From positions 1 through 54,061 of IMG/VR virus record IMGVR_UViG_3300043602_000277: 54,061 bases of DNA. The stretch is one strand, 5' to 3'. The DNA comes from a virus. A model generated the notes under the pieces. That model was given only the letters and a program-made list of their open reading frames with translations. It had not been told where the DNA came from and did not search any database. Position numbers and translations under genes: made by a program. Below, piece by piece: positions 3,553 to 51,758 of the stretch; the stretch's first letter is position 1; each line of letters begins with the position of its first letter.

Positions 3553-4080
3553 GTGGCGCTTTCGGCCAAACAGAAGGCATTCATCAATGAGTACCTATCT
3601 GACTTTAATGCGACCCGTGCAGCACAGCGGGCGGGATATGGCGGGGATGAGAACACCTTAGCAGTCACAGGCAGCAGATTGCTAAGAATTGATAAGGTTG
3701 CCGAAGCCATCGCGGCCCGAATGCAAGAGAAGGCCATGGGCGCGGATGAAGTGCTTAGGCGCCTTGCAGAACAGGCAAGGGCTGAATACAGCGCCTATCT
3801 CACAGCGAATGGCACGGTAGATTTTGCCCGGCTGATTGCGGATGGCAAAGGTCATTTGGTCAAGGGTATCAAAGATACCGCTCAGGGGCGCAACATCGAA
3901 TTTCACGACGCCCAAGCCGCGCTCGTGCAAATCGGCAAGCATCACAAGCTCTTTACCGACAAGGTAGAGGTGGAGCATTCCGGTACGGTCGAAATTACAG
4001 CAGACGAAAGAGCGCGGGCGGCAAAAGAGCTTGAGCAATGGAACGAACAGAAGAAAGCCGGCGCAACATCGAATGGCTAA
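3553..4080 (+). CDS. terS: Terminase small subunit A
   Basis: This 175-residue protein starts with GTG. MALSAKQKAFINEYL and NATRAAQRAGY are the classic DNA-binding start of Terminase_2-type small subunits. The C-terminal half (EYSAYLTANGTVDFARLI to HHKLFTD) is nearly identical to the second small subunit at 48523-49005, while the N-terminal half differs. It should recognise the packaging site and recruit the large subunit. The GTG is supported by the aligned ATG of the second copy. It overlaps the large subunit gene by 43 bp. Confidence 0.9.
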   Translation: MALSAKQKAFINEYLSDFNATRAAQRAGYGGDENTLAVTGSRLLRIDKVAEAIAARMQEKAMGADEVLRRLAEQARAEYSAYLTANGTVDFARLIADGKGHLVKGIKDTAQGRNIEFHDAQAALVQIGKHHKLFTDKVEVEHSGTVEITADERARAAKELEQWNEQKKAGATSNG

Positions 4081-5489
4081 AATGCACGCAGTGTGTCGAT
4101 TACTTTATCGAGATGTATGTGATGATTTTTAACGCCACCGACAAGGATTGGGTGCGTTTTGCCCTGTGGCCCGCTCAGTCTGACACATTACAAAAGATCG
4201 GCCAAGAGCGACAAGCGATTGTGCTTAAAGCGCGGCAGCTTGGTCTCTCGTGGCTTGTCCTTTGTTATGCGCTTCATGCCATGGTCTTTAGGCCGGCGGC
4301 GACGATCCTCATTTTTTCTAAGCGCGACGAGGAAGCGGTTGAACTGCTGCGGCGCATCAAGGGCGTCTATGAGCGCTTGCCGGCATGGATGAAACCGCGC
4401 GCAGTCGCTGATGCCGATCACAATTGGGAGCTATCGAATGGCTCCTCAGCCAAGAGCTTCCCGACCACCGGCGGGCGTAGCTATACCGGTAGCCTTGTGA
4501 TCGTAGACGAAGCCGATTTTGTGCCTGACCTCGACTCCTTGATCAACGCCGTCAAGCCGACCATCGACGCCGGCGGGCAGATGGTCATGATCTCGACCGT
4601 GGATAAGAGTCAACCCGAATCGCCCTTCAAGCGCATTTATCGAGCTGCCAAGCATGGCGATACCGGCTGGCGATCTATCTTCCTCCCTTGGCACGCCCGC
4701 CCAGGCCGCACCCCTGAATGGTATGAGATACAACAGCGCGACATTTTCGCTCGCACCGGCTCTTCGGATGACCTTTATCAAGAATACCCGGCCACGGACG
4801 CCGAGGCGATGGCTCCGCGTGAGTTGGACAAGCGCATCCCTGCGGTCTGGCTCACCAACGTCTATGTCGCCGCCAAGCCACTGAGTAAAGAGGAGATCGC
4901 AGCCCAGAAGCTGCCCTCGCTGCCCAATTTGGAGGTGTATCGGCTGGTAGAACCGAAACACCGCTATGTGATCGGCGGCGATCCAGCAGAGGGCAATCCG
5001 AACAGCGATCCGTCGGCGCTGACCGTGCTGGACATTGACAGTGGAGAAGAGGTGGCGGCATTGGCGGGACGCATCGAGCCCAGCACTTTTGCCGCCTATG
5101 CCGACGAGCTCGCCGGCTACTACAATCGGGCGGCCATCATGTTTGAGCGCAACAATCACGGTCATGCCTGCATTGGCTGGCTGCGTGACAACTCCAAGAG
5201 CCGCTTGCTGCGCGGATACGATGACAAGCGTGGTTGGCTCTCCAACTCGCTGGGCAAGGCGCTCATGTACAGCAGCATGGCCGATGCCGCCAGAGATCAG
5301 CAGATGACAATTCATTCATTTGAGACCTATTCGCAACTGGCCTCAATCGAAGCGACCAGCCTAAGAGCGCCGGAAGGCTTACACGACGACCGTGCCGATT
5401 CGGTTGCACTCGCCAACATGGGCAGGCTTGCGAGCTTCAACAAACGAGAAGATCAGGAGACCCCGCCAAGTTCGTCGGGCTACGTTTGA
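4038..5489 (+). CDS. terL: Terminase large subunit A
   Basis: This 483-residue packaging motor and nuclease has the expected domains. The ATPase has a degenerate Walker A, KARQLGLS (64-71), as in many terminases, Walker B VIVDEAD (154-160) and coupling motif MISTVD (about 184-189). The RNase H-like nuclease has acidic motifs GGDPAEGN (313-320), MFERNNHG (368-375) and HDDRADSVAL (449-458). It cuts concatemers and drives DNA into the prohead through the portal. The second large terminase at 48971-50242 has a canonical Walker A and is only distantly related, although the small subunits of the two modules are close. Confidence 0.93.
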   Translation: MERTEESRRNIEWLKCTQCVDYFIEMYVMIFNATDKDWVRFALWPAQSDTLQKIGQERQAIVLKARQLGLSWLVLCYALHAMVFRPAATILIFSKRDEEAVELLRRIKGVYERLPAWMKPRAVADADHNWELSNGSSAKSFPTTGGRSYTGSLVIVDEADFVPDLDSLINAVKPTIDAGGQMVMISTVDKSQPESPFKRIYRAAKHGDTGWRSIFLPWHARPGRTPEWYEIQQRDIFARTGSSDDLYQEYPATDAEAMAPRELDKRIPAVWLTNVYVAAKPLSKEEIAAQKLPSLPNLEVYRLVEPKHRYVIGGDPAEGNPNSDPSALTVLDIDSGEEVAALAGRIEPSTFAAYADELAGYYNRAAIMFERNNHGHACIGWLRDNSKSRLLRGYDDKRGWLSNSLGKALMYSSMADAARDQQMTIHSFETYSQLASIEATSLRAPEGLHDDRADSVALANMGRLASFNKREDQETPPSSSGYV

Positions 5490-28788: not shown

Positions 28789-29163
28789 TTACCGCGCTTG
28801 GTCAACTTCGACAAAGCCGACGCTGGCGTTGCAATTGACCTTGAAGTAGTAAATAGCGGTGTCGCCGCTACCAAGCACATGCGATTCATCATCTAGCTTG
28901 GTGCAGACTGTTCCTTCAGCGATGTCTTTGTATTGCTCATTTGGGCCTTCAGTTAAATCGGCCCAGAGATGAACATAGCCATGGTTCCAGGGCTTCGCTA
29001 CCAATTTCAGAGAGTTTCCAATGGATGCAGCATCAGCACTTGGGGCTCCCCGCGCATCCATTGCGATCTTGATGACGCCAAAGATGACAATCAGAACCAT
29101 ACCGATTATCACAATGGAAATCATGAAGCGACTTAACTTGTTTTCAGATTGGGCGATTGACAT
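28789..29163 (-). CDS. Single-pass membrane protein, possible superinfection exclusion factor
   Basis: This 124-residue protein starts at ATG 29163 (MSIAQSENKLSRF). It has one strong membrane helix (about residues 14-33, MISIVIIGMVLIVIFGVIKI) followed by a secreted-type domain of about 80 residues with two Cys (GTVCTKLDD, KVNCNASV). It is leftward, after the tail genes, a common place for lysogeny-expressed cargo. A role in blocking superinfection is a guess from topology. Its 170-bp upstream region has a GGGGCCGC-ACTA-GCGACCCC hairpin (about 29211-29232). Confidence 0.62.
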   Translation of the reverse strand: MSIAQSENKLSRFMISIVIIGMVLIVIFGVIKIAMDARGAPSADAASIGNSLKLVAKPWNHGYVHLWADLTEGPNEQYKDIAEGTVCTKLDDESHVLGSGDTAIYYFKVNCNASVGFVEVDQAR

Positions 29164-29335
29164 AGTAGTTCCTGTTGCCGGCTTTAGCCCGCCAACTTTG
29201 CGCAAAAATTGTGGGGCCGCACTAGCGACCCCGCTCCTAATAAGTCTAACTCAAGTTGCCGTGCGAATTTCTGACAGCCGGCTTGCATTTTGGCAAGGTC
29301 GTTGACAGCTATCTGGCAGATCGCTGAACTACTAT

Positions 29336-30007
29336 TTACTGCTCAAATATGTCGGCAAAAGATACGAACTGCGCTAGTCGCATTGGTACGCCATCTGCCC
29401 TTCCCGTTGTGTCGCTGGTCAGGATACCGAAGGGCATCGTAATGCCGAGTTCTTTGGTAATCACCAAGCCTCCACTCATGCCAGCCAAAGGCGTGAGGTT
29501 ATCGATCATTGCATATTGATGGAATACGCGCGATTGTGTTGTTCCCGGCGGTTCTTCCATTGTTTCTGCCTCAAATCCCAATGCTTCGATTGACCGTAAT
29601 TTACCTTTAGGCGGCTGTCCCCAAATCATGGAATCCGAAGGAAATCCAAGTATTTCAACTGGCATGTGAGAGCGTATTTTTCGCGCGGATAATAAGCCGT
29701 CGTAATGGAGAAATAATGGAGCCGGACCAGTCTTTAGTCCAAGGGAGACTACTGCGAAGTCAGCGGTTTGTGTTTCCGATTCCCCGCGCCAGTACCTTGG
29801 AATGGGTGTGCCAAGATCGACGGCGCCCATCGCAGTTGCGATCTTAAGCGCGCCCATTTCTAGCGCGGGTTCTACGACATGGCGGCACGACACAAGAAAT
29901 AGCTCGTTACGATATTGAATCAATACGCCAGAACCATGAGGCCCTGCAAACAGCATGATCCCTGGCGGCCCTCCGGCTACGATTACTACAGAGTTTGAGT
30001 AGTTCAT
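29336..30007 (-). CDS. Trypsin-like serine protease
   Basis: The 223-residue protein has the chymotrypsin-fold triad in order: His in LVSCRHVVEPAL, Asp in TADFAVVSLG and Ser in LAGMSGGLVI. The N-terminal PHGSGVLIQYRNELFLVSCRH matches the first strands of trypsin-like peptidases. No signal peptide is clear, so it probably acts inside the cell. It is leftward with an AGGAAGG ribosome site, in the cargo region next to the membrane protein. Such isolated proteases occur in prophages and in some defence loci, but its substrate cannot be told. Confidence 0.8.
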   Translation of the reverse strand: MNYSNSVVIVAGGPPGIMLFAGPHGSGVLIQYRNELFLVSCRHVVEPALEMGALKIATAMGAVDLGTPIPRYWRGESETQTADFAVVSLGLKTGPAPLFLHYDGLLSARKIRSHMPVEILGFPSDSMIWGQPPKGKLRSIEALGFEAETMEEPPGTTQSRVFHQYAMIDNLTPLAGMSGGLVITKELGITMPFGILTSDTTGRADGVPMRLAQFVSFADIFEQ

Positions 30008-30570: not shown

Positions 30571-30581
30571 TATGCTAAAAT
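30571..30581 (+). promoter_or_regulatory. Extended -10 promoter of the ParB/DUF262 unit
   Basis: TATGCTAAAAT contains an extended -10 (TGC TAAAAT) in an AT-rich region (30480-30580). A -35 box at 17 bp is poor, as is usual for extended -10 promoters. The expected start is near 30588. Nothing else is seen in the AT-rich stretch 30440-30570. Confidence 0.6.
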
Positions 30582-30587
30582 GGCAGG

Positions 30588-30767
30588 AATAACAGATTGA
30601 AGAGATACCAGGGCGACGCTCACTACGTCCCCTGGCATGGCAGCAGAAACAGGAGTTCTGATGCACCCCGATCATATCATACCTGGGGGTCTAATGGCCC
30701 CCTTGAATTCCCAAATCGACAACATATCTGGAAATTTCGCGCGCAAACTATGCGCGCTTTTTATTTT
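30588..30767 (+). ncRNA. Structured leader or small RNA with three hairpins
   Basis: Between the extended -10 promoter and an intrinsic terminator lies about 180 nt with ordered hairpins. The first is CCAGGG-(C)-GACG with CGTC-CCCTGG (30608-30618 with 30626-30635). The second is GGGGG/CCCCC (30685-30689 with 30698-30702). The third is the terminator stem. This could be a stand-alone small RNA or an attenuating leader for the ParB and DUF262 genes. A 44-codon frame with a good ribosome site runs through the second and third hairpins, so a translated attenuator is the main alternative. Confidence 0.45.
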
Positions 30768-30795
30768 CTCCTACAACAACGGTCATAGCTTATGA
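30661..30795 (+). CDS. Small leader ORF coupled to the ParB-like gene
   Basis: ATG 30661 follows AGGAG at 5-base spacing, and 44 codons (MHPDHIIPGGLMAPLNSQ onward) run to a TGA that overlaps the parB start (TATGA). The ParB-like gene has no ribosome site of its own, so coupling through this ORF is plausible. The peptide has a hydrophobic end (KLCALFIFSYNNG). A T-rich terminator hairpin lies inside the frame, as in translated attenuators. Confidence 0.45.
   Translation: MHPDHIIPGGLMAPLNSQIDNISGNFARKLCALFIFSYNNGHSL
30739..30767 (+). terminator. Intrinsic terminator/attenuator ahead of the ParB-like gene
   Basis: The stem GCGCGC-AAACTAT-GCGCGC (30739-30757) is followed by TTTTTATTTT. It lies only 25 bp before the parB start, so it would attenuate transcription of the two-gene unit or end a small RNA. 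Confidence 0.75.
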
Positions 30796-31694
30796 ATTTA
30801 CCGTTAGACCAAATTCGCAAGGACGGCGGTACGCAAGCACGCGCGCAACTTGATTGGGGCGCCATTGATGAATATGCGGCGTCAATGAAGGAGGGGGAAG
30901 AATTCCCACCCATCATTGTCTACTATGATGGCACCGACTACTGGCTCGCCGACGGCTTTCACCGCGTGAGCGCAGCGGAGAAGGCGGGCCTGACGGAGAT
31001 CGCCGCCGATGTGCGGCAGGGAACGCGTCGGGACGCCATTCTCCACAGCGTGGGAGCGAATGCCAACCATGGGGTACGTCGCACTAATCGTGATAAACGC
31101 CAGGCCGTCATGATGATTCTACGGGATGAGGAATGGGGCAAGCTGTTTGACGGTGATATTGCTCGTCTTTGCGGTGTAACAAGCAGAACGGTTGCGACAA
31201 TTCGCAATGAGATGATTAATGAAAATTTCATTAAGCCTTCGCCAGAACGCTTTGGACTTCGCAATGGCAAGGTTCAAGTAAGAAATGTCGCCAATCTTGG
31301 CCGCAAACCCTCGCCGCTGTTGGTTCCCGAAGCCCTGCCACCAACGTTATGGCCCGTACCTATGCTGACCGATCTCGTCGCCCCAGAGGTTTCGCAGCCT
31401 ACTTTACACGACACGGAATTCACCTACCGTATTGCGCCCGATGATCTCTGTCTTATCGAACGGTGTCCCAACCAAGATGTCGAATGCGCCCATTGGTATT
31501 GGTACATGCGCCGGGATACAGCGGAGGAGGCAGCGGAAGCCTTTTTGCGATTGGGCAAAAGCATGGGATTACCAATCCAAGATGATGTCGTACCGACCAC
31601 AGGGGATGAGTTGGTTTATGAGGATTATGACATGGTTGTCTATGACATAGGTGCCTATGACACGGACGACTATGACGTAGACGAAGATAACTAA
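30792..31694 (+). CDS. ParB/Srx-fold protein with helix-turn-helix
   Basis: The 300-residue protein has an N-terminal ParB-like domain (PLDQIRKDGGTQAR, EFPPIIVYYDG, ADGFHRVSAAEKAG at about 53-66). A helix-turn-helix follows (GDIARLCGVTSRTVATIRNEM, about 120-140), with an extended region and a very acidic Tyr/Asp-rich tail (EDYDMVVYDIGAYDTDDYD). ParB-like proteins bind DNA and some hydrolyse CTP or cut DNA. There is no ParA partner. It is instead followed after 28 bp by a DUF262-HNH gene. The pair therefore looks like a cargo or defence operon rather than a partition system. Confidence 0.75.
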   Translation: MNLPLDQIRKDGGTQARAQLDWGAIDEYAASMKEGEEFPPIIVYYDGTDYWLADGFHRVSAAEKAGLTEIAADVRQGTRRDAILHSVGANANHGVRRTNRDKRQAVMMILRDEEWGKLFDGDIARLCGVTSRTVATIRNEMINENFIKPSPERFGLRNGKVQVRNVANLGRKPSPLLVPEALPPTLWPVPMLTDLVAPEVSQPTLHDTEFTYRIAPDDLCLIERCPNQDVECAHWYWYMRRDTAEEAAEAFLRLGKSMGLPIQDDVVPTTGDELVYEDYDMVVYDIGAYDTDDYDVDEDN

Positions 31695-31722
31695 TTAGCT
31701 ATCAGCCTAACAGGAGAAAACA

Positions 31723-33003
31723 ATGCAAAGTAATATGCTAGGAGGTTTTGACTTACAGAAGGTAATTTTGACGGGCGATATAGCACTCGATTGCTTGACG
31801 CTGGTCGAACGGTACGAAAAGAAGCAATACAGAATCCCTGATTTTCAGCGCCAGCCGCTTTTATGGCCTGACGCGCAGAGACAATCGTTTATCAGTCGAT
31901 TGCGAATCGGCCCCGCTCCAATTGGGACGATTGTACTCTTTGCCTCAGAAGATGATGCAGAACGCCATACCTATTTACTGGACGGATTGCAGCGTATTAG
32001 CACTATGTGGGAATTTTATCACAAGCCCGAGCGTTATGGCATAAGCGACAAGGATATTGCCCACCAGTTCTTACATAACGCAGAATTTCCGGTACAGCGG
32101 CGCACCTACCCGAACCAACGGGAGGCCTATGCAGACTTTCTCCGCTTGCAAGCCAATCTTCATCTCACGGCCTATGAAGAGAATTTAGGGACGCGTTCAT
32201 TACTTCCGCAGTGGTCATGGTTTAGTGGGATAGAAGATGATTTGCATAAGCGCGTGGCGCAAGTAATTGCGGGTTATGGAGTGAGGGAAAAAGATGATCG
32301 GGAGAATGCACACAACTACTTCCGCCACAATTTAGGAATGTTTTTGCGCTATGCAACCGCAAATCTAACATTGGAACCATGGCAGGTAACAGGCAAAATA
32401 AAAGCAAAAGCTGTCGAGACCAGGTTAGCGGAACTGCTTAAATCAGAATCCATGAAATTTAGTTCCGCCACAGAATCTTTAAAAGGGCTTTATCGCCGCC
32501 TCGATCTAGATTTTGCCGTGATTTTTGAAGCGTGGAAGGAGGCAAAGAAAGCAAAGGGGCTTAACGATGCGCGGCACATGGAAATTACTGTAATTCGTTT
32601 TTTACATGAATGCGGTATCTATGCACATCTCAACCGAGTCGGCCCCTATCGCTTCAAAAGTTTTGCACTGCAACTACTGAGCATCACCGAGGGACGCGGC
32701 CAGGTTCCATATAAGAAAGAAGGATCAGCAGAACGTGTCACACTTGGTTTGGGGAAGCTAGGACGTTTGTCGGACATGGCCCGTCATACCGCTGTTGAAG
32801 AGGACATACGCAATCCTGATGACAAGAGCGATAAGAGTAGTGGCAATTATCCAATCGGTCGCGGTCAAGATCGCGGTCATTTGCTTCCAAAGAGTATGTA
32901 CGGCAATGGCCCAACCGAACCGGAGCCAGCCTCATTGAATCGGTCAAAGGGAAATCGGATAACAGAGGAAGAATCATCCATAGATAATTTAGAGCCGGGG
33001 TAG
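31723..33003 (+). CDS. DUF262-HNH protein (GmrSD-like nuclease)
   Basis: The 426-residue protein has an N-terminal DUF262 domain with IPDFQR (38-43) and LDGLQR (86-91), the nucleotide-binding hallmarks of GmrS-like proteins. A helical middle follows, then a C-terminal HNH-like end (RGHLLPKS with His 386, then LNRSKGNR with Asn 406 and 411). GmrSD enzymes cut modified phage DNA, and other DUF262 proteins act in defence. A prophage-carried copy would protect the lysogen. It starts after AGGAG and is co-oriented with the ParB-like gene. GC is lower than in the structural genes, suggesting separate acquisition. Confidence 0.8.
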   Translation: MQSNMLGGFDLQKVILTGDIALDCLTLVERYEKKQYRIPDFQRQPLLWPDAQRQSFISRLRIGPAPIGTIVLFASEDDAERHTYLLDGLQRISTMWEFYHKPERYGISDKDIAHQFLHNAEFPVQRRTYPNQREAYADFLRLQANLHLTAYEENLGTRSLLPQWSWFSGIEDDLHKRVAQVIAGYGVREKDDRENAHNYFRHNLGMFLRYATANLTLEPWQVTGKIKAKAVETRLAELLKSESMKFSSATESLKGLYRRLDLDFAVIFEAWKEAKKAKGLNDARHMEITVIRFLHECGIYAHLNRVGPYRFKSFALQLLSITEGRGQVPYKKEGSAERVTLGLGKLGRLSDMARHTAVEEDIRNPDDKSDKSSGNYPIGRGQDRGHLLPKSMYGNGPTEPEPASLNRSKGNRITEEESSIDNLEPG

Positions 33004-33042
33004 GTGCACGTTCGTCGCTGCCTGTAACAGCGGCTAACATTC

Positions 33043-33073
33043 GCCGCTGGTCGTGCGCAAACACGCCAGCGGC
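33043..33073. terminator. Strong hairpin between convergent genes
   Basis: GCCGCTGG-T-CGTG-CGCAAA-CACG-CCAGCGGC is a near-perfect 12-bp stem 40 bp after the DUF262-HNH stop, between convergent transcripts. The T tract is poor, so it may be a weak terminator or a 3' end stabiliser. The rest of 33074-33171 holds nothing I can identify. Confidence 0.6.
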
Positions 33074-33171
33074 TTCTATGTATCCAACTATATCCTAAGT
33101 AGAACATATTTCCAAGTGTTTCCATTCACCCTTACCCTAGCTCCGCTACCGCACCCTACCCGTGCAGCTAC

Positions 33172-36897: not shown

Positions 36898-36930
36898 CTG
36901 CTCATTAACAACTGAACAGATTTGTTACAG

Positions 36931-36973
36931 TGACCCCCCAGGGATTCGAACCCTGAACCCAATGATTAAGAGT
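36931..36973 (-). other. Candidate attP core: 3' half of tRNA-Lys (CTT)
   Basis: The minus strand reads as a tRNA from the anticodon loop CTCTTAA (anticodon CTT, Lys) through the variable loop GGGTT, the perfect T-arm CAGGG-TTCGAAT-CCCTG and an acceptor strand GGGGGTC plus A. Upstream of the anticodon loop the pairing is lost, so it is not a complete gene. Identity to the 3' half of a host tRNA, right beside the integrase, is the standard form of an attP that restores the tRNA after integration. Confidence 0.85.
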
Positions 36974-37021
36974 TCTGTATAGTGGGTTGAGGTAAAACCG
37001 CGCTTAATTCAATAACAAAAA

Positions 37022-37067
37022 GAGCCACTGTGACTAATCTGTAGTTAGTCACAGTGGCTCTTTTTTT
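37022..37067. terminator. Bidirectional intrinsic terminator between attP and integrase
   Basis: A perfect 16-bp stem GAGCCACTGTGACTAA / TTAGTCACAGTGGCTC (37022-37037 with 37045-37060) has an A tract before it and seven T after it. It would stop transcripts from both sides, ending integrase transcription just before attP. Confidence 0.9.
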
Positions 37068-37076
37068 GGTGAAAAA

Positions 37077-38018
37077 TCAACCACCGACACGCCGGCGCAC
37101 TTCTTGATATTCGCGGCGGATGCCTTCCGGCAGCCAGTGGGCATAGAAGCGGCGCGTGAACTCTTCACTGGCATGGCCCATTGTGTCGCTGACGGCGGAT
37201 AGTTGCATTCCATTGTTGAGAAAGAGCATGGCATAACCGTGGCGGAAACGGTGCGGATTCTGGTAGGGCAATCCTGCTTCATGGCAGCGCCGGTGCAGCA
37301 TCTGGCGCACGCCGTTTCCGCTGAGCGCAGCCCTGGCGCCGCCGATGCCATTGTTGGAGACAAAAAGCGGATTGCCGGGAATGTTTTGGCCGTCGTGCGT
37401 TAAGGGCCGTTTCATCAGGTAGGCGCGGATCATGGGGCCTAGATCGGCGCCACAGGGGACAAGCCTGCCTTCGCCGCCTTTGCCGGTTTGCACCGTCACC
37501 TGCTGGCGAATGACGTCAACATCCGGCTGTTTGAGATCGGTCAGTTCGGAAATCCGCAATCCACACCAAAAGAGCAGATAGATGATGCAGCGATCGCGAC
37601 ATTCAACCCAGGTGTGTTCGCCTATCGAAGCCGTGAGCCGCTGGTACTGGGCCAAGCTCACATAGGGTCGCACTCCATTTGGTAAGCCGGGCGCTTCCAG
37701 ATCAGCCATTGGCGACGCCGGCAGACACTTCACCCGCTTGACGAGATAGTTATACCAGACCCGCAGACTCCGATAACGACCCGCCACCGTGTATGGACTA
37801 TAGCCGGCCTCCTGTTCATGGACGATGAACGCCTCAATCGTTTCGGGTTCGCCCATATCCAACCGGCTTTGCATTGGATCGGCTAACCAGTCGAGGTAGC
37901 GGTTGAGGTGTTGCTCATAGGAGATCAGTGTGTTCGGTGAGCGATTGAGCGCACGCTTCGTTTGCAGGAACCGTGCAACCCAGCTCGACCATAGTTCGAC
38001 ATCTGCGCGTGTTGCCAT
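37077..38018 (-). CDS. int: Tyrosine integrase
   Basis: The 313-residue protein has a SAM-like N-terminal core-binding domain (residues about 10-100, LNRSPNTLISYEQHLNRYLDW) and a C-terminal catalytic domain. The active-site set is complete: Arg155 (GLRISEL), Lys180, His256 and Arg259 (HRFRH), His282 (MGH) and Tyr292 (FYAHW). It should recombine attP with a host tRNA-Lys gene. It is leftward, with attP directly downstream of its stop beyond a terminator. No excisionase is obvious. One of the small early proteins could serve. Confidence 0.95.
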   Translation of the reverse strand: MATRADVELWSSWVARFLQTKRALNRSPNTLISYEQHLNRYLDWLADPMQSRLDMGEPETIEAFIVHEQEAGYSPYTVAGRYRSLRVWYNYLVKRVKCLPASPMADLEAPGLPNGVRPYVSLAQYQRLTASIGEHTWVECRDRCIIYLLFWCGLRISELTDLKQPDVDVIRQQVTVQTGKGGEGRLVPCGADLGPMIRAYLMKRPLTHDGQNIPGNPLFVSNNGIGGARAALSGNGVRQMLHRRCHEAGLPYQNPHRFRHGYAMLFLNNGMQLSAVSDTMGHASEEFTRRFYAHWLPEGIRREYQEVRRRVGG

Positions 38019-48522: not shown

Positions 48523-49005
48523 ATGGCTTTATCGGCCAAACAAAGCGCATTCGTAGAGGAATATTTGCGATGCTGGAATGCGACAGACGCTTATCAGACC
48601 GTTTATCCAAAGTCGAGTCGGGACGCGGCCAGAGCACACGCAGCGCGATTGGTAGCAAATGGTAGCATTGCCGCAGAGATTCAGCGCCGTGTAGATGAAC
48701 GCGCCATGTCCGCCAATGAAGTGCTTGATCGTCTTGCGGAGCAGGCCAGGGCCGGCTATAGCGCCTATCTCACAGCGGACGGTGCAGTAGATTTTGCTCG
48801 GCTGGTCGCCGATGGCAAGGGACACTTGGTCAAGGGCATCAAAGATACAGCGCAAGGACGTAATATCGAGTTTCACGACGCCCAGGCCGCGCTCGTGCAA
48901 ATCGGCAAGCACCACAAGCTCTTTACAGATAACGTGCAACAATCCGGTGAGGTAGTGGTAAAAGTCCAATATGGCGATGACGGAACTGACAGTACGCCTG
49001 AATAA
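48523..49005 (+). CDS. terS: Terminase small subunit B
   Basis: The 160-residue protein begins MALSAKQSAFVEEYL and NATDAYQTVYP, a Terminase_2-type DNA-binding start. The C-terminal half (YSAYLTADGAVDFARLVADG to HHKLFTDN) is almost the same as in module A. The large subunit it feeds is, however, of another type. It overlaps the large subunit gene by 35 bp. Confidence 0.9.
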   Translation: MALSAKQSAFVEEYLRCWNATDAYQTVYPKSSRDAARAHAARLVANGSIAAEIQRRVDERAMSANEVLDRLAEQARAGYSAYLTADGAVDFARLVADGKGHLVKGIKDTAQGRNIEFHDAQAALVQIGKHHKLFTDNVQQSGEVVVKVQYGDDGTDSTPE

Positions 49006-50242
49006 GCCACACCCCAAACAGCGCCAGTTTCTGCGCTGCCCGGCCAAGCGCATCGTGGTGCGGGCCGGCCGACGCGGCGGCAAAACGGTCGGCATGGCCA
49101 TCAAGGCCGTGGAGAGTTTTCTGCGAGGACACCGCGTGCTCTACGCCGCGCCCACGGCTGACCAGATCAACACCTTTTGGCGCCATGTGCGCGATGCTCT
49201 TCAGCCTTGCATCGACGCCGGCCTCTATTACAAGAACGAAACCGAGAAGATCGTCGAATTGCGTGGCACGGAGCAGCGCATCAAAGCAAAGACCGCTTGG
49301 AACAGCGACACTCTTCGTGGAGACTATGCCGATCTGCTCATCCTCGATGAGTGGCAGTTGATGAATGAAGATGCCTGGGGCGTCGTCGGTGCGCCGATGC
49401 TTCTGGACAATGACGGCGATGCGGTCTTTATCTATACGCCGCCATCGGCGCGTACGGCTGGCACCAGCAAGGCGCATGACAAAAAACATGCGGCCAAGCT
49501 CTTTGCGGCAGCGGCTGCCGATACGACGGGGCGTTGGGCGGCCTTTACCTTTAGCAGCCACGACAACCCCTATTTGAGCCAAGATGCTTTGGGGGAAATT
49601 GCCGGCGACATGAGCAATCTGGCCTATCGCCAGGAAATCATGGCTGAGGACATTGACGAGGTTCCGGGGGCATTGTGGACGCGGGCGAACTTAGAAAAGC
49701 ATCGTATCAAGTCAGCGCCTTCAATGTACCGCATCGTCGTGGCGGTAGACCCGGAAGCCACGGCCACGGCCACCAGCGCCGAGACGGGCATCATCGTGGC
49801 AGGCATCGACGAAAACGAGATCGGCTATCTCTTGGAGGATTGTACGCTGCGGGGATCGCCTGGCGAGTGGGGTATGGCTGCCGTGCGCGCCTTTGATCGC
49901 TGGGACGGCGATCACATTGTCGCCGAAACCAATAACGGCGGTGACATGGTGAAATTTGTGGTCGAGGCGGCTGCCAAGGAGTTATATCGGCAGGAGGAGC
50001 GCAAGAGCGACCGTATACCTTACAAGAAACTGCACGCCAGCCGGGGAAAACATACGCGCGCCGAGCCGGTATCAACGCTCTACGAGAATGGCCGTATTAA
50101 GCATGTCGGTGCTTACGCCGAGCTGGAAGATCAGTTATGTACGTGGTTGCCGGGTGATACGAGTCCCGATCGCTTAGATGCGGCTGTGTGGGCCTTTACC
50201 GAGTTGATGCTTTCAGAGAAGAAAAAAGCCGGAACATGGTAA
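48971..50242 (+). CDS. terL: Terminase large subunit B
   Basis: The 423-residue protein has a canonical Walker A, AGRRGGKT (32-39), Walker B LLILDEWQL (122-130) and a coupling-type FIYTPPS. The C-terminal nuclease has VAVDPEA (257-263), AETNNGGD (318-325) and DRLDAAVWA (400-408). The pattern fits the Terminase_6 group and differs from large subunit A. The start could be ATG 48971 or 48977. It packages DNA with the portal encoded 16 bp downstream. Confidence 0.93.
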   Translation: MAMTELTVRLNKPHPKQRQFLRCPAKRIVVRAGRRGGKTVGMAIKAVESFLRGHRVLYAAPTADQINTFWRHVRDALQPCIDAGLYYKNETEKIVELRGTEQRIKAKTAWNSDTLRGDYADLLILDEWQLMNEDAWGVVGAPMLLDNDGDAVFIYTPPSARTAGTSKAHDKKHAAKLFAAAAADTTGRWAAFTFSSHDNPYLSQDALGEIAGDMSNLAYRQEIMAEDIDEVPGALWTRANLEKHRIKSAPSMYRIVVAVDPEATATATSAETGIIVAGIDENEIGYLLEDCTLRGSPGEWGMAAVRAFDRWDGDHIVAETNNGGDMVKFVVEAAAKELYRQEERKSDRIPYKKLHASRGKHTRAEPVSTLYENGRIKHVGAYAELEDQLCTWLPGDTSPDRLDAAVWAFTELMLSEKKKAGTW

Positions 50243-50258
50243 GAATGAGTGAGGAACA

Positions 50259-51758
50259 ATGTCAGACATCATCCTGATCGCTAACAAAGACGGGCAACCG
50301 GTTGGCGCCATCCCGCGGCCCAGCGTAAACGCCCGCTCCGTCCTCAGCGACCGCCTGGCCCTGGGCGGCTATGGCACATCGTTCAGTGGCGCCCGTGACT
50401 ACTTCGATGTGCTGGGCTATCCCAAGGCACTCAGTATCGATGCCTATTGGGGCAAGTTTGAGCGTGATCCGTTGGGCGGGCGCATCGTCGAATTTCCGCC
50501 GGCAGAGACATGGCGGGATACGCCGACGGTCAAGGATGGGCGTGATAAGGATGCCCTCGACGACACCGCCTTTGCTAAAGCGTGGGCCGACTTTGCCGAA
50601 CGAATGCGCGTCTATCACTACTGCAAGCGCGTCGACATCCTGTGCGGCATCGGGCGCTTTAGCATCCTCCTGATTGGCGTGGCCGGCGGCGGTGATTTGG
50701 AGAGCGAAGTCAAGCGCGTCACTAGCCTTGACCAGATCCTCTACCTGCGCCCGTACGGTGAGCAATCGGTCGAGGTGACCGAATACGAGAACGACCCGGC
50801 AAGCCCGCGCTTTGGCCTGCCGCGCATCTACACGGTCACGTTTGCCGATACCAATACCCTGGGCAATATGGGCACCATTCAGCGCCGCGTCCATGCCAGC
50901 CGCGTGATCCATGTCGCCGAGGGGCTGCTGGAAAACGACGTGTACGGGATGCCGCGGCTGCAACGCGTCTATAACCTGCTCGACGACATCCTCAAGTTGG
51001 TGGGTGGGGCTGCCGAGGCCAGTTGGCTGCTGATGCGGAAGGGCTTTGTACTCAACATCGACCCGGAAGCGGAACTATCCGCCGAGGCCGCCGCCAGCAT
51101 CGAAGAGGAGTTTGACGAATACGAGCATGGTCTACGCCGCTTTATGAAAACGCGCGGCGTCACGGTCAGCGACCTTGGCAGCGAAGTGGTTGACCCGTCG
51201 GGGCCGTTTAGCGTCATCATCGGCCTGATTAGCGCCGCCACCGGCATCCCGCAGCGCATCCTGCTTGGCAGCGAGCGCGGCGAGCTGGCATCTTCGCAAG
51301 ACGGTGCCAATTGGGCGGGGGCCATTGCCAGCCGCCAGCTCAACTTTGCCGAGCCGACGATCCTGCGCCCGCTGATTGACCGCCTCATCCAGTGGGGCGC
51401 TATGCCGGCGCCCACGCAGGGCCGCTATACCGTCGTGTGGGATGAACTCTTTGAACTCAACGACCAGGAACGGGCCGCCATCGCCGTGGCCTGGGCCGAT
51501 GCCATCCAGAAGCTAGCAGCCGTCTACGGTATGCCGCCGGTAACGATGGAGGAATGGCGCGGCGACTTCTCGCCCTTCCCCGGCGAATTGCCGGTGACGG
51601 CCCTGGAGCCTGTACCGCCGCCCACCATACCCGCCAATCTGCCTGGCCAGGATGTGCTGGGGCAAGTGGCCGACCTGGTGGGCAACGCCGGCTACAGTGG
51701 GCCGGAAGCGTTTGCGCTGGTCAACGCAGCGGCTAGGCTGATTGCGAGGCAAGGATGA
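50259..51758 (+). CDS. Portal protein B (DUF1073/Phage_portal_3 type)
   Basis: The 499-residue protein follows the DUF1073 portal family: DYFDVLGYPKALSIDAYWGK, GRIVEFPPAETWR, a central RVHASRVIHVAEGLLEND, and SAATGIPQRILLGSERGELA near the C-terminus. Databases sometimes label this family Acb1-like because of a shared domain name, but the place after the large terminase makes it the portal. It is unrelated in sequence pattern to portal A. The stop overlaps the next ATG. Confidence 0.87.
   Translation: MSDIILIANKDGQPVGAIPRPSVNARSVLSDRLALGGYGTSFSGARDYFDVLGYPKALSIDAYWGKFERDPLGGRIVEFPPAETWRDTPTVKDGRDKDALDDTAFAKAWADFAERMRVYHYCKRVDILCGIGRFSILLIGVAGGGDLESEVKRVTSLDQILYLRPYGEQSVEVTEYENDPASPRFGLPRIYTVTFADTNTLGNMGTIQRRVHASRVIHVAEGLLENDVYGMPRLQRVYNLLDDILKLVGGAAEASWLLMRKGFVLNIDPEAELSAEAAASIEEEFDEYEHGLRRFMKTRGVTVSDLGSEVVDPSGPFSVIIGLISAATGIPQRILLGSERGELASSQDGANWAGAIASRQLNFAEPTILRPLIDRLIQWGAMPAPTQGRYTVVWDELFELNDQERAAIAVAWADAIQKLAAVYGMPPVTMEEWRGDFSPFPGELPVTALEPVPPPTIPANLPGQDVLGQVADLVGNAGYSGPEAFALVNAAARLIARQG

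Follow-up and report, generated by a model that had tools for sequence, protein, structure and literature searches.

The two adjacent genes described here, one encoding a ParB-fold protein with an HTH (ParB-HTH) and the other a DUF262 protein, probably represent one version of an as yet uncharacterised pair of phage genes and not a proven new defence system, since similar pairs recur in phage DNA-replication clusters. They are found in the linear IMG/VR record IMGVR_UViG_3300043602_000277, the whole 54,061 bases of which are referred to as the window. The cassette occupies positions 30571-33003 of the plus strand, as the original prediction correctly had it, and stands alone, outside any recognisable replication module, with the last of the late genes on one side and a run of minus-strand genes on the other. 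At about even odds in our estimation, the two products are a phage 'double ParB/Srx' nucleotide-dependent complex on DNA, here in the form of a stand-alone, leader-controlled prophage cassette. Its features are:

30571-30581, plus strand: extended -10 promoter element TATGCTAAAAT (from the sequence)
30585-30765, plus strand: structured leader RNA with three hairpins and a terminator (from folding)
30640-30664, plus strand: hairpin with the AGGAG ribosome site in its loop and the AUG of the leader ORF in its 3' arm (predicted structure)
30661-30795, plus strand: 44-codon leader ORF, with AGGAG 5 nt before the ATG and an ATGA overlap with parB
30739-30766, plus strand: intrinsic terminator (GCGCGCAAACTATGCGCGC at 30739-30757 followed by a T-run), within the leader ORF
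30792-31694, plus strand: predicted ParB/Srx-fold and HTH DNA-binding protein, 300 aa (Pfam, PHROG, structure model)
30951-30965, plus strand: DGFHR motif, residues 54-58 of ParB-HTH
31712-31716, plus strand: AGGAG ribosome site of the DUF262 gene
31723-33003, plus strand: DUF262/GmrSD_N protein, 426 aa (Pfam PF03235, 1.3e-12)
31804-32100, plus strand: DUF262 domain, residues 28-126, with IPDFQR and LLDGLQRIS motifs (Pfam, alignments)
32878-32958, plus strand: HNH-like fragment HLLPKS...LNRSKGNR (H386...N406RSKGNR412), recognised by eye and without profile support

Large terminase genes occur twice in the window, at 4038-5489 and 48971-50242, along with a major head gene (near 10.1 kb) and a portal gene (50259-51758); the window therefore appears to consist of two joined prophages.

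The product of the first gene matches PHROG 1033 ('ParB-like partition protein') at 4e-15 and Pfam ParB_N at 6.5e-5, the latter below the curated cut-off. A structure model built from 48 sequences has a mean pLDDT of 75.6, with values >90 across nearly all of residues 1-150, and resembles Noc, ParB and KorB (Foldseek 1e-7 to 1e-6; Z 12-14 over about 90-130 residues). The ParB N-terminal fold with an HTH is present, and the gene is ParB-like, as had been predicted, on the strength of the PHROG match and the fold model. Invariant positions in the family include G12, T14, Q15, R17, W51-R58 (WLADGFHR), G94, D101 and K102. The DGFHR motif, shared by all 48 aligned family members, stands in place of the ParB GxRR box, and the canonical GxRR phosphate box is absent from these members. 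A ParB without ParA had also been foreseen, and no match to PF13614 was found at E 1 in the record, which may be a fragment. As the original prediction had it, the cassette fits neither ParABS partition nor the usual GmrSD operon, and the pair does merit attention as a unit.

Relatives of ParB-HTH were recovered from 507 viral and 267 genome stretches, and their neighbours include ResIII/DEAD helicases (63 loci), Toprim proteins (35), AAA_24, DUF669, RusA and primase. ParB-HTH is thus a member of a large phage family residing mostly in replication/recombination modules, a setting more suggestive of phage DNA metabolism than of defence. Prophages commonly encode ParB-fold proteins that lie outside parAB operons, and such proteins bind CTP, ATP or GTP (PMC12704722). 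The window protein shares with these orphan ParB-like proteins (PMC12704722; PHROG 1033) the ParB/Srx fold with an HTH, the lack of ParA and the prophage setting, but it possesses DGFHR instead of the GxRR box and is paired with a DUF262 protein, whereas the term "DUF262" is absent from the text of that survey (PMC12704722).

The second gene follows parB after 28 bp and its product scores 48.6 bits against GmrSD_N (PF03235; cut-off 33.2), in keeping with the GmrSD-like DUF262 gene expected at this distance. It has DGLQR at residues 87-91, where GmrSD has DGQQR. The predicted HNH domain was not confirmed: Pfam HNH and DUF1524 profiles gave no match on the whole protein, its C-terminal 87 residues matched no Pfam family at E up to 10, DUF1524 had no match anywhere in the record at E 10, and the HNH-like fragment was seen by eye only. 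With HNH and DUF1524 undetectable, the "nuclease" half of the pair is unsupported. In PADLOC the best matches were to NsnA (1.8e-9, 35 bits) and PD-T4-2_A (2.4e-8, 31 bits), both limited to the DUF262 core of about 90 residues. We take NsnA to be the DUF262 protein of Menshen. Close relatives of the window DUF262 protein were found in none of the phages, plasmids and viral contigs searched, nor was there a sequence match in the PDB. A structure model derived from a two-sequence alignment was unusable (pLDDT 35) and was discarded. Elsewhere, at loci L165 and L167 of Chloroflexota genomes, a DUF262 gene precedes a gene for an ATPase-like protein; the L165 DUF262 protein is similar to NsnA along its entire length (372 bits), which makes these two loci Menshen-like.

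GmrSD, BrxU, SspE, Menshen, Dazbog and PD-T4-2 are DUF262 defence systems (PMC10952713). Like GmrSD, BrxU and SspE, in which DUF262 is joined to DUF1524 or HNH, the window protein has an N-terminal DUF262 with QR and DGxQR motifs; it differs in lacking a detectable DUF1524 or HNH, in having DGLQR rather than DGQQR, and in belonging to a two-gene unit with ParB-HTH. It resembles the DUF262 proteins of Menshen (NsnA) and PD-T4-2 in its length and in having no DUF1524, but those systems have other partner genes and the similarity is confined to the DUF262 core. No AAA/OLD-type or HEPN family was detected among the window proteins scanned, a subset of its ORFs. Two-gene Type IV enzymes composed of two ParB_n proteins, one with HNH, have been described (PMC12373910). 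These GmrS/GmrSD enzymes likewise have two ParB_n/Srx-superfamily proteins encoded side by side; both of theirs are of the DUF262/GmrS type and one carries HNH, whereas the window has one ParB-HTH protein and HNH is undetected.

Pairings of a related kind recur. The same-strand gene immediately downstream (+1) of ParB-HTH encodes a protein with a DG-x-[QHN]-R motif at 25 of 111 loci, compared with 1 of 581 genes further away. This count includes the window itself, and its Fisher p of 2.6e-20 ignores relatedness; 16 loci with such a partner remain once a planctomycete genome with many copies is left out. The loci were sampled by similarity to the window and the counts describe that sample, not phages at large. 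The window, with adjacent same-strand genes for a DGFHR ParB-HTH and a DG-x-[QHN]-R partner, fits this definition. The commonest +1 partners are DGQHR proteins of about 277 aa (20 loci), many of them from the one planctomycete genome, and since their profile aligns with that of the window DUF262 over 14 columns only they are analogous to it at best. In that genome (CP087563) ParB-HTH followed by a DGQHR or DGHNR gene occurs in many copies (L091, L122, L124, L128, L133, L136, L152, L158 and L161), perhaps an expanded mobile element.

The closest analogue is ParB-HTH followed, with an ATGA overlap, by a gene for a DGLQR protein. This arrangement was found at seven loci, two in acidobacterial genomes (L137 and L155, where the DGLQR protein has 349 aa) and five in viral contigs (L181-L185). 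These pairs share with the window the gene order, a DGLQR-type second gene and a very short intergenic distance; they differ in having no leader and a second protein which is remotely related, the profile of the window and L016 DUF262 proteins aligning with the DGLQR family over 64 columns (hhalign E 4e-5, probability 70%). The L183 pair differs further in being part of a recombination module, PD-(D/E)XK and RecD2-like proteins being among the next gene products. A search with the DGLQR protein yielded six viral loci. At one of these, L180 (3841-6041), it is preceded by a different ParB_N protein in place of ParB-HTH, which suggests partner exchange. In L180 and L183, the loci examined for this, the downstream products include PD-(D/E)XK, AAA_24 and RecD2-like proteins.

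The survey of the pair that the original prediction had called for gave a divided result, in that the wider DG-x-[QHN]-R pairing is strong while ParB-HTH with DUF262 proper is rare. Apart from the window, a PF03235 protein adjoins ParB-HTH in 1 of 80 viral records with this ParB family; this is phage L016, where the DUF262 gene lies 33 bp upstream of ParB-HTH and its product has 24% identity to that of the window (E 2e-10). A search with the L016 DUF262 protein recovered only itself. Among 50 genomes with ParB-HTH, PF03235 occurs in 26, in none of them beside ParB-HTH as judged by coordinates, the matching of contigs to loci being incomplete. In 400 Chloroflexota genomes the DUF262 profile gave weak matches in 7 and ParB-HTH was found in 6, and no second DG-x-[QHNF]-R gene was seen beside ParB in short loci from Chloroflexota genomes. 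In the phylum of L155, 396 genomes were surveyed and the DGLQR protein is encoded in one, that of L155 itself. On the ParB tree the pairing with DGLQR or DUF262 requires four changes, at least two of which are forced by supported branches; the window, L016 and the L155-type pairs fall on separate branches, which suggests that the pairing has arisen repeatedly.

The cassette is preceded by a leader whose anatomy was largely as predicted. The extended -10 element TATGCTAAAAT is the sole TGnTAWAAT on the plus strand of the window. No -35 is recognisable upstream of it, the best candidate with normal spacing agreeing at 3/6 positions, and the element is absent from the promoter-scan output. The 181 nt from 30585 to 30765 fold with -61.3 kcal/mol and a z score of -4.3 (-4.7 on repeat); among 216 segments of equal length across the record, 6 have values of -4 or lower, placing the leader among the top few percent, though not alone there. 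Hairpins at 30608-30635, 30640-30664 and 30685-30702, together with the terminator hairpin and its T-run, bear out the three hairpins and terminator expected over about 180 nt; 30640-30700 folded by itself is no better than shuffles (z -0.2). The 44-codon ORF, likewise expected, has its well-placed ribosome site and overlaps a parB gene which has none of its own. Its product has no family match in Pfam or PHROG searches.

No Rfam family matched the leader at its gathering score. The nearest, Trp_leader (E 0.06, 21 versus 41 bits), was dismissed as a chance match. Terminator-like hairpins lie upstream of 11/143 members of the ParB-HTH family and of 69/1969 other genes, and three of the 11 are copies of the window itself; a terminator before parB is accordingly not clearly enriched as a family trait. 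The exact leader motif was found in no viral contig, and in the L155-type pairs the start of parB abuts the preceding gene, without a leader. Judged by these comparisons the leader is common to no relative, and the idea that it is a conserved part of the unit was not upheld. This uniqueness and the strength of the terminator would suit a small RNA of its own that ends at the terminator, with the ORF a chance frame, a frame of this length and phase being open in 8% of dinucleotide shuffles. The frame occurs together with a ribosome site in 0.6% of shuffles, and its ATGA overlap is with a gene lacking a ribosome site, which argues against chance. We regard the small RNA as possible but unlikely, whichever view is taken of the gene pair.

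From what was observed, namely the genes present and their motifs, the ParB fold model, the recurrent pairing and the anatomy of the leader, the following model of the nucleotide-dependent complex can be proposed. The ParB-fold protein with its HTH is predicted to bind DNA; the DUF262 protein, of the same superfamily and with a DGLQR pocket, would bind or hydrolyse NTP, and the two would act jointly as an NTP-dependent complex on DNA. The ancestral setting of the pair may have been a phage early replication or recombination module. Transcription would start near 30585 and by default end at the terminator at 30757. Ribosomes translating the 44-codon ORF would traverse the terminator hairpin and begin anew at the parB start codon that overlaps the ORF, so that both proteins would be made only if the leader is translated. 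Complex formation, NTP switching, this coupling or antitermination, and a role in phage DNA metabolism are what we infer. A functional interaction of DUF262 proteins with ParAB is hinted at, indirectly, by plasmid pQBR57 in Pseudomonas fluorescens, where the cost of a DUF262-DUF1524 protein to its carriers falls when expression of the plasmid par genes rises (PMC8544851).

DUF262 proteins have been known chiefly from bacterial defence, as its effectors or sensors, and the ParB proteins encoded away from parAB operons are a large group still lacking an explanation. A repeated ParB-DUF262 link in phages would suggest that the two families share a nucleotide-switch principle in the metabolism of phage DNA, upon which defence systems may have drawn. 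A hitherto undescribed class of nucleotide switch on phage DNA, composed of two ParB/Srx-superfamily proteins (ParB-HTH with a DUF262 or DGQHR partner), whose stand-alone, leader-controlled prophage version possibly serves superinfection exclusion, is a speculative extension that we think doubtful.

The foremost alternative is that the cassette is a prophage defence acting in superinfection exclusion, in which ParB-HTH would recognise DNA and the DUF262 protein would be the sensor or the effector, driven by NTP, comparable to Menshen, PD-T4-2 or the two-gene GmrS/GmrSD restriction systems. The GmrSD_N score above cut-off, the best PADLOC matches and the precedent of Type IV enzymes encoded by two genes, each for a ParB_n protein (PMC12373910), all speak for it, as does a stand-alone cassette between tail-end and opposite-strand genes, next to a trypsin-like protease gene with weak LmuA similarity. 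Those PADLOC matches cover the DUF262 core alone, however, whereas the L165 protein aligns with NsnA throughout; HNH/DUF1524 is undetected, the adjacent partner is neither a HEPN nor an AAA/OLD gene, and most ParB-HTH relatives reside in replication modules. Because the characterised DUF262 proteins are defence proteins, and the cassette is at a typical prophage accessory position, we retain defence as a minority possibility. The candidate anti-phage unit originally proposed survives as a unit with a possible defence role, set against relatives in phage replication modules, and its "ParB without ParA plus nuclease" signature provided no evidence for defence.

That an autoregulated ParB-HTH repressor and a DUF262 gene acquired at a hot spot are simply chance neighbours is improbable, for although the exact pairing is rare, the L016 gene order differs and the DUF262 gene has its own ribosome site, the genes are on the same strand 28 bp apart and DG-x-[QHN]-R partners, including DGLQR with the ATGA overlap, are strongly enriched beside the ParB-HTH family.

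Several other elements near the cassette deserve mention. Directly after the DUF262 stop codon, 33001-33100 folds strongly (z -4.2) without a T-run. On the minus strand at 28789-30007 a small gene with a probable membrane segment adjoins the gene for a trypsin-like protease, whose similarity to LmuA is weak (3.7e-4), and the two are a possible second accessory cassette. An integrase gene is located at 37077-38018. Next to it, 36930-36985 on the minus strand resembles, on reading the sequence, the 3' half of a tRNA gene, probably Lys with anticodon CTT; ARAGORN called no tRNA there and the segment is single-copy within the window, but its position makes it a likely attachment site. Also beside the integrase gene, a perfect 21-bp inverted repeat with A and T runs (37017-37065) is likely to be a bidirectional terminator.
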